A stretch of 26,423 nt of DNA, from positions 77,686-104,108 of IMG/VR virus record IMGVR_UViG_3300027908_000022. One strand, 5' to 3'. The notes beneath the pieces are model-generated. The model was not told the DNA's origin. It made no database searches and worked only from the letters and a program-made list of their open reading frames with translations. Positions 15,149 to 16,202 of this stretch are shown piece by piece. The position numbers were made by a program, and so were the translations under genes. Origin of the DNA: a virus. Position 1 is the first letter of the stretch, and the number at the start of each line of letters is the position of its first letter.

Positions 15149-15181
15149 TTATAATATGGTCATCCGTACGTACGGCGTCAA
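15149..15181 (-). promoter_or_regulatory. Promoter-operator P1 for the 299-aa gene
   Basis: Minus strand: -35 TTGACG (15181-15176), immediately followed by the perfect 12-bp palindrome CCGTACGTACGG (15175-15164), then an AT-rich -10 region CATATTATAA. Spacing is 17-19 nt depending on the -10 chosen. The palindrome in the spacer would let a repressor block RNA polymerase. Confidence 0.8.
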
Positions 15182-15185
15182 GCCC

Positions 15186-15623
15186 TCACTCAACCTCGTA
15201 TCGAAACGCGTAGCCCTCGTGGTGTCCGAGGTTCGACATGCCGTAATACGTCACCAGCTCCCGGCCGACGTACCGCTTGCCGTTCTTCGTCTTGGCCAGC
15301 AGCGTGGCCTTGCCACCGGCCGCCCTGACCGAGCAAACGAATGCCTGGGCCTCGGCGCGGGCCATGGCGTAGCTGGGAGCCCCTGTCACAACCAGCTCCT
15401 TGTCCGTGGCGCGCATCTTGATACGGAGGCCGGCTTTGCACTCGGCCATGTGCTTCGCCTGGAAGGCGCGCTCTTCGGCGTCCTCGGCGGCCTGCTTGGC
15501 CATGGTGGCCTCGTAGCAGGCCTTGTGGAAGGCCTGGCCCGTCCAGGTAATTTCCTCGCCCGCGTCAAAGGCCATGTCGCACTCGACGCACCGGCCGGCC
15601 CACTTCGCTTTCAAGGTCCGCAT
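15186..15623 (-). CDS. Zinc-ribbon protein of unknown function (145 aa)
   Basis: ATG at 15623 has GGAGG 5 nt upstream; the GTG one codon earlier is too close to that site. The N-terminus carries CVECDMAFDAGEEITW, then HKACYEA, a CxxC...HxxC zinc site. A charged helix follows (TMAKQAAEDAEERAFQAKHM), then a beta-rich C-terminal part (TLLAKTKNGKRYVGRELVTY) of unknown fold. Its promoter is the palindrome-containing P2 at 15641-15671. No catalytic motif is seen. Likely an accessory early protein; function unknown. Confidence 0.78.
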   Translation of the reverse strand: MRTLKAKWAGRCVECDMAFDAGEEITWTGQAFHKACYEATMAKQAAEDAEERAFQAKHMAECKAGLRIKMRATDKELVVTGAPSYAMARAEAQAFVCSVRAAGGKATLLAKTKNGKRYVGRELVTYYGMSNLGHHEGYAFRYEVE

Positions 15624-15640
15624 CACGTCCTCCCTACACC

Positions 15641-15671
15641 ATTATAATAACCACCGTACGTACGGCGTCAA
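15641..15671 (-). promoter_or_regulatory. Promoter-operator P2 for the 145-aa gene
   Basis: Minus strand: TTGACG (15671-15666), palindrome CCGTACGTACGG (15665-15654), then TTATTATAAT as the -10 region. The upstream gene's TGA stop (15670-15668) lies inside the -35 hexamer, so the promoter is fitted exactly to the gene end. Confidence 0.8.
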
Positions 15672-15967
15672 GCGTTCGCGCCACCGTGATTCTTCCCGCC
15701 GCACGAGCACTCACACACGCAGCCGGTCGAGCCCACACACTTGGCATTGCACACCACGGAAGCCTTGTAGGTGCCGCGCACGGGCTTGGCCCGGACCCGG
15801 CCGCCGCACTTGCGGCATACGAGGCATAGGCTACCCGTCCTAGGGCTGTAGTGGACGACGCCCAGCGGGACCACGTCGTACGGGCGCGCGTCAGTCACGT
15901 TGCCCTCGAGGAGGCCGGTCGACACGCACTTGCAAGCGCCGCACTTGGCTAGATACCGCGTTCCCAT
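15668..15967 (-). CDS. Cysteine-rich zinc-binding protein (99 aa)
   Basis: Start chosen at ATG 15967, with GAGG 8 nt upstream; ATG 15973 two codons earlier is the alternative. The protein contains KCGACKC, CLVCRKCGGR and a C-terminal cluster CNAKCVGSTGCVCECSCGG followed by KNHGG. Small phage proteins ending in a CxCxCGGxNHG-type cluster are familiar to me, but no function is established. At least four Cys pairs suggest two or three zinc sites. Expressed from promoter-operator P3. Confidence 0.75.
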   Translation of the reverse strand: MGTRYLAKCGACKCVSTGLLEGNVTDARPYDVVPLGVVHYSPRTGSLCLVCRKCGGRVRAKPVRGTYKASVVCNAKCVGSTGCVCECSCGGKNHGGANA

Positions 15968-15982
15968 CACCATCACCTCGCA

Positions 15983-16015
15983 CTTATATCGTAACCCCCG
16001 TACGTACGGACGCAA
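15983..16015 (-). promoter_or_regulatory. Promoter-operator P3 for the Cys-rich 99-aa gene
   Basis: Minus strand: TTGCGT (16015-16010) as a weak -35, palindrome CCGTACGTACGG (16009-15998), then GTTACGATATAAG with a -10-like element. The hexamers are less perfect than in P1, P2 and P4, but the palindrome is identical. Confidence 0.7.
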
Positions 16016-16025
16016 GGCCTCCGTC

Positions 16026-16196
16026 CGAGTCTTGTCCCACCTGAACGGCCGCACTGAACGCCACGTCATCTCGCGCGGCGCCCCTTGCACGCCTGAAGCC
16101 GAGCAGCTGAGCGCGCTTGGAAACGCCGTCGTGCCGCAGTGCGGCGAGGTCATCGGCCGGATCGTCATGCACCTTGACACCGTACGTACGGGTTAG
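16026..16196 (+). pseudogene. 3' remnant of a C5 DNA cytosine methyltransferase
   Basis: The plus-strand frame reads RVLSHLNGRTERHV...PEAEQLSALGNAVVPQCGEVIGRI and stops at 16196. ALGNAVVPQ followed by an aliphatic helix is the conserved C-terminal motif X region of C5 cytosine methyltransferases. Nothing resembling the catalytic PCQ or ENV motifs occurs upstream; that space holds promoter P3 and an opposite-strand gene. This is therefore a decayed tail of a former methylase. Its last codons overlap the -35 and operator of promoter P4. Confidence 0.65.
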
Positions 16197-16202
16197 TATA
16201 TT
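16174..16202 (+). promoter_or_regulatory. Promoter-operator P4 for the rightward accessory operon
   Basis: Plus strand: consensus -35 TTGACA (16174-16179), palindrome CCGTACGTACGG (16180-16191) at the start of a 17-nt spacer, then -10 TATATT (16197-16202). The strongest of the four by sequence. It faces away from P3 and should drive the 16239-19878 gene block. Confidence 0.88.

Follow-up and report, generated by a model that had tools for sequence, protein, structure and literature searches.

Four copies of a perfect 12-bp palindrome, CCGTACGTACGG, lie in front of genes in this phage record, each directly abutting a -35-like hexamer, and we propose that the palindrome serves as operator for a small ribbon-helix-helix (RHH) repressor encoded by the phage, most likely the product of g146. 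On sequence and fold-model evidence together, a repressor role for g146 at CCGTACGTACGG is the best explanation as a whole and is somewhat favoured. The window analysed here (26,423 nucleotides) runs from base 77686 to base 104108 of a linear virus record of 104,108 bp (G000), the remainder of which was read as loci L005-L008. In total, 152 genes were called with a simple self-trained codon model; their numbering (g001-g152) is that of this analysis, and gene starts are approximate. Coordinates without a prefix refer to the window.

The first putative operator copy (15164..15175, minus strand) belongs to promoter P1, with a -35 at 15181-15176 and as -10 either TATTAT at 15156-15151 (19-bp spacer) or CATATT at 15158-15153 (17 bp). 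Copy 2 (15654..15665, minus strand) belongs to P2, with a -35 at 15671-15666 followed by TATTAT at 15649-15644 (16 bp) or TATAAT at 15646-15641 (19 bp). Copy 3 (15998..16009, minus strand) belongs to the putative promoter P3, with a -35-like hexamer at 16015-16010 and TATAAG at 15988-15983 (21 bp) or TACGAT (16 bp). Copy 4 (16180..16191, plus strand) belongs to P4, with a -35 at 16174-16179, TATATT at 16197-16202 and a 17-bp spacer. The four abutting hexamers are TTGACG, TTGACG, TTGCGT and TTGACA (P1-P4), and each is preceded by a C (cTTGACG, cTTGACG, cTTGCGT and cTTGACA), while the distance from the palindrome to the -10 differs between promoters. Only P4 has textbook spacing (TTGACA-17-TATATT), and with 11 of 12 consensus bases it is a near-perfect sigma-70 promoter. 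A record-wide scan for promoters close to the consensus ahead of called genes returned P1, P2 and P4 and no others. A sequence-only reading of this DNA had counted four promoters; judged from their sequences, P4 appears firm, P2 good and P1 fair, whereas P3, the weakest of the four, has the hexamer TTGCGT and lacks a well-spaced -10.

The same reading had placed the palindrome right after the -35 in four promoters over about 1 kb, three leftward and one rightward, with no fifth copy, and this holds for the whole record: CCGTACGTACGG has 4 exact copies in the window and in the 104,108 bp alike, there is no fifth, and the reversed control pattern gave 0. All four sites are symmetric and fall inside 1,028 bp. 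No version with one mismatch occurs anywhere in the record, and the 6 versions with two mismatches are scattered. A scatter of the palindrome through coding DNA had been named as something that would refute this reading, and the genome-wide search found copies solely at promoters: all four are outside called genes and in front of genes. From the frequency of TTG, the probability of finding TTG at a given offset, on either side, at 4 of 4 fixed sites is ~2e-7. The arrangement TTGNNN followed immediately by any perfect 12-bp palindrome occurs at 5 places in the record, 4 of which are the CCGTACGTACGG sites. As a control, 916 kb of other Ro60-phage DNA (around 80 Ro60 genes) gave 7 such places, 6 of them distinct, and the palindrome differed in each. 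Around the four sites the DNA is dissimilar, with 29-38% identity over the 73 bp upstream and 17-28% over the 60 bp downstream (50% for P2/P3), where 27% is expected, which argues that the palindrome has been held constant rather than recently copied along with its surroundings. An intrinsic terminator was flagged once, at P2, and was ruled out because a 12-bp self-palindrome yields only a 4-bp stem.

A gene starts no more than about 65 bp past each of P1, P2, P3 and P4. The first gene past P1 is g137 (14228..15127, minus strand; 299 aa), which matches no family at E<0.1 and is followed by g136 and g135. Directly past P2 lies g138 (15186..15623, minus strand), which encodes 145 aa with a cysteine-containing N-terminus and matches phrog_1581 (unknown function, E 5e-5), and directly past P3 lies g139 (15668..15967, minus strand), which encodes a cysteine-rich protein of 99 aa and matches phrog_6842 (unknown function, E 3e-6). 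Behind P4, eight small cistrons, g140-g147 (16239..18136, plus strand), are tightly packed with overlaps or 8-bp gaps; they include an HNH endonuclease gene, g144 (17063-17422, plus strand), and g146 (17709..17882, plus strand), the seventh cistron, which encodes a CopG-like RHH protein of 57 aa and stands two genes ahead of Ro60. The last gene, g148 (18166..19878, plus strand), lies 29 bp past g147 and encodes Ro60 (TROVE plus vWA). It matches Pfam vWA_Ro60 at 3e-65 and TROVE at 2e-39, and is thus a genuine Ro60 gene. The P4 run therefore contains nine genes, g140-g148, whose neighbours overlap or are 8-29 bp apart, with Ro60 at the end. An open frame ending in ...ALGNAVVPQCGEVIGRIVMHLDT... 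occupies about 16012-16180 (plus strand), between P3 and P4, and runs into P4; by eye it resembles the C-terminal part of a cytosine DNA methyltransferase, and it was recognised neither by Pfam nor by a PDB search.

The sequence of g146 (MSGTQHNEDRTRKMHTITLSDQASDRLDQIAEQLDTTRSGAIEVLVLGHKLRRAART) has the ribbon-helix-helix pattern, and Pfam RHH_1 matches it with an E value of 0.0034 and 17.7 bits, below the 20.5 cut-off. Across the whole record, the RHH_1 family search gave exactly two matches, g146 and g084. The best PDB sequence match of g146 is CopG (E 0.22). Its structural model has a mean pLDDT of 82.9, and a Foldseek search with this model returned CopG-DNA complexes first (E 0.14). VIA-align matched the model to CopG, MatP, AmrZ, Arc, PutA and MazE-type antitoxins at Z about 5-6, which is modest by itself, but most of the highest-ranked matches are RHH proteins. 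We count g146 as an RHH protein on its sequence, its paralogy and its predicted fold. The palindrome sits in P4, and the operon is packed from P4 through to g146; repressor genes are, however, more usually first or second in their operon than seventh. A search for g146 homologs among cultured phages, viral contigs and 396 genomes from a single phylum gave one weak match, and none with a similar site.

The second match, g084, scores 20.8 bits against RHH_1, above the 20.5 cut-off, and is 48% identical to g146 over 46 aa, so that the two are paralogs. It belongs to an operon of small genes, g083-g089, which starts behind a variant palindrome, CTGTATATACAG, at G000 49063, and GTGTATATACTG covers the -10 of the promoter of this operon (TTGCGT-16-TATACT). 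Both CCGTACGTACGG and CTGTATATACAG fit the skeleton CNGTANNTACNG, which occurs 5 times in 104 kb compared to 0.4 expected, always outside called genes; the five sites are the four CCGTACGTACGG copies and CTGTATATACAG. Both RHH_1 genes are thus in units starting behind such palindromes (g140-g148 and g083-g089, 2 of 38 transcription units). This pairing was spotted after the fact, and for this reason no formal probability is attached to it; it nevertheless appears to strengthen the link between g146 and its palindrome. The earlier suggestion that one repressor would switch all the accessory genes is too broad, since the small genes g083-g089 form a second block, with a variant palindrome and an RHH paralog of its own. 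Tentatively, two duplicated RHH repressors may have drifted to non-cross-reacting palindromes (CCGTACGTACGG and CTGTATATACAG) so that the accessory genes may fall into two sets under separate control, and one set would yield Ro60 and the Y-RNA-like transcript cluster directly downstream; we regard this wider scheme as possible but not probable. In the LexA box of E. coli, CTG and CAG are 10 bp apart; CTGTATATACAG is similar to this SOS box, but its CTG-CAG separation is 6 bp, and a LexA site was rejected. A NikA-like RHH gene, g073 (L007:4576-4834; G000 44576-44834), adjoins divergent promoter-like sequences with GGGTACCC/CGGGTAC repeats, possibly a third pair of RHH gene and operator.

In the mechanism that we propose, g146 dimers would sit in the spacer beside the -35 and keep host-type sigma-70 RNA polymerase off P1-P4 by steric block. 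Since all four promoters would be blocked in this way, one protein would switch g139, g138, g137-g135 and the nine-gene operon, which is presumably co-transcribed as far as Ro60. Because g146 would be made from P4, it would also limit its own synthesis. The paralog g084 would act likewise on g083-g089, by way of CTGTATATACAG, a diverged form of the skeleton CNGTANNTACNG, and of GTGTATATACTG, which covers the -10. MobC of plasmid RA3, also an RHH protein, autorepresses via a palindrome between -35 and -10 (PMC4175270), and repression by steric block is the most likely reading here. One dimeric regulator for all four units, including the Ro60 operon, appears to be the simplest reading of the sequence, as had been suggested before, and the candidate regulator is now found to be encoded in that operon.

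To look for the arrangement elsewhere, TTGNNN followed by CCGTACGTACGG was searched in viral contigs, and 9 contain it. In one of them (L025, an unrelated contig of 4,977 bp that also carries a terminase gene), an ORF (MKSVRFEMRLEPAELEQWKADAESNGQSLSNWVRERC...) starts 18 bp downstream of TTGAAA-CCGTACGTACGG and has further CGTACGGAC-type half sites around it. This ORF matches NikA-like, an RHH family, below threshold (E 0.0033), is not CopG-like, and is a probable RHH gene. The single-sequence model of its protein is poor; the predicted fold starts strand-helix-helix, and a fold search with this poor model gave no RHH match of weight. A small RHH profile matched nothing in the 9 contigs, L025 included; the L025 gene was thus recognised by eye and by the Pfam NikA-like model, and distant RHH genes are possible in the other contigs. 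In 85,000 genomes, TTGAC plus the palindrome gave 16 matches, which is not above chance (about 30 by our own estimate), and in viral contigs the palindrome followed by TATANT gave 4 matches, beside which inspection by eye showed no RHH gene. IMG/VR was also scanned at the protein level for relatives of this phage, with Ro60 alone, the portal protein and g138, and yielded none. At 80 Ro60 loci from viral contigs, there was no RHH relative of weight, CNGTANNTACNG sites were at chance level, and matches to other genes of this phage were isolated, one of them to the P4 cistron g144. Since none of these 80 neighbourhoods shares the arrangement, the regulon is local rather than a conserved partner of Ro60.

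The palindrome could be the operator at all four promoters and yet be read by another protein, such as the XRE-type HTH protein g003, the NikA-like RHH protein g073 or a host regulator exploited by the phage. We consider this rather unlikely, although g003 has a clear HTH_3 domain and the RHH gene of L025 is closer to the class of g073 than to g146. In addition, plasmid RA3 has a CGTACGTACG-containing sequence (an oligonucleotide with TTTCGTACGTACGAAA) within parS/oriT, the region to which the KorB (ParB-type) site IR-SnaBI has been mapped (PMC8124265, PMC4175270), so that non-RHH proteins may read this core; among the literature matches listed for CGTACGTACG, RA3 was the one operator-like context followed up. 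However, g003 lies ~87 kb away with no such palindrome nearby, g073 adjoins repeats of the different GGGTACCC type, and neither a KorB nor a ParB_N domain turned up in the record. A different binder would also leave unexplained why both RHH_1 paralogs are linked with both variants of the skeleton.

It is improbable that the bound protein activates instead of represses. Such a role would fit the long or poor spacers of P1-P3 (the best -10 is 19-22 bp away), which recall MerR-type promoters, where twisting is needed: the best-scoring -10 of P1 and that of P2 lie 19 bp from the -35, and TATAAG of P3 lies at 21 bp. But P4, with its optimal 17-bp spacer and 11 of 12 consensus bases, is already ideally spaced and therefore needs no activator, which makes activation less likely; usable -10 boxes are also present at 17 bp in P1 and 16 bp in P2, the palindrome is flush with the -35 and not centred in the spacer, and no MerR protein was noticed in an unsystematic look at the proteins examined. 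We give very little weight to the idea that the -35 and palindrome are a recently copied cassette without a regulator, for although P1 and P2 have 20 identical bases in common (GCTTGACGCCGTACGTACGG), all 12 palindrome bases are kept at the four sites while the flanks and -10 regions are unrelated, the -35 hexamers of P3 and P4 have diverged, and a passenger palindrome is not expected to remain perfect and symmetric.

The small cistrons had also been read as a possible lysogenic gene set, for which the record offers no backing: no tyrosine integrase or serine resolvase was found in it (no Phage_integrase or Resolvase domain), and it may be incomplete. Just past Ro60 (19885-20190, plus strand), there are three tandem RNA-like units, each starting with CGGGTCG and each with a terminal stem that has TCTTCATCCG on its 3' side and is followed by a U-run. 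The first unit contains a tRNA-like T-arm (GGGTTCAACTCCC), and the fold z-scores of the three are -2.0, -3.1 and -4.1. They look like a Y RNA cluster adjoining Ro60, with one YrlA-like member; Rfam at its thresholds did not detect them. Elsewhere in the window, a 1,135-aa portal protein (10359-13766, plus strand) has its portal domain followed by a fused NUDIX domain, and the capsid gene block includes putative endonucleases at 3237-4061, 5125-6084 and 7242-7685, all on the minus strand, with types described as endonuclease VII/HNH-like, GIY-YIG homing type and one HNH-like by eye. In the rest of the record, ~30 tRNA genes form a single leftward array (L008:2842-8950; G000 about 62842-68950), and a 643-bp intergenic gap (G000 10435-11077, in L005) consists of imperfect short GGATCGGAC/GGCAGGATAGG-like repeats. 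A small protein with DnaA domain IV (E 7e-13; L007:2900-3256, minus strand) and a protein with a weak match to sigma-70 region 2 (E 3e-4; L006:9316-10176, minus strand) are possible replication and transcription factors of the phage.

A literature search found no earlier description of the regulon, of its likely repressor or of a sister repressor with a variant site in this large, poorly known phage. The regulon, the candidate repressor and the paralogous pair appear to be new, while the general scheme, in which a small repressor controls its own synthesis from an operator in the promoter spacer, is already well known. If the proposal is right, a phage Ro60 gene gains a regulator and an operator that can be tested, and a single genome offers two paralogous RHH repressors whose sites have diverged, a natural pair that would help the study of specificity change.

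Among known systems, Arc and Mnt of phage P22 are small phage-encoded RHH repressors, and Arc is among the fold matches of g146. These two repressors belong to the immI region of P22, which is temperate, whereas no integrase was found in this record. In cluster A mycobacteriophages, as proposed here, one phage protein (the immunity repressor) serves many copies of one site, but these stoperators are asymmetric 13-bp sites spread genome-wide (PMC4351075, PMC9283540), and the sites described here are symmetric, four in number and confined to 1 kb. Cluster O mycobacteriophages carry palindromic 17-bp repeats with dyad symmetry, the presumed target of a dimeric protein (PMC4351075); these have more than 30 copies, about one third in genes and mostly off promoters, compared to four here, all at promoters. 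Site symmetry, number and placement thus rule out a stoperator-type or cluster-O-type repeat system. A KorB/ParB operator of the RA3 OB type does not fit a record that has no ParB_N/KorB protein, and MerR-type regulation, with a 19-20-bp spacer and a mid-spacer palindrome at every target, does not fit P4 at 17 bp or palindromes flush with the -35. CopG of the pMV158/pLS1 plasmids, the best structural match of g146, is like it a small RHH protein (45 aa) with the same TITLS strand. The site found here is a perfect palindrome of 12 bp whose half sites are GTAC; the operator of CopG is different. CopG represses its own operon (PMC6607859), a single operon on a plasmid with the gene first, unlike the four promoters and seventh-placed gene here. 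MobC of the IncU plasmid RA3 resembles the proposal in being an RHH autorepressor with a palindrome between -35 and -10 (PMC4175270), and differs from g146 in that it is a conjugation factor of 176 aa whose imperfect operator is described at one promoter.
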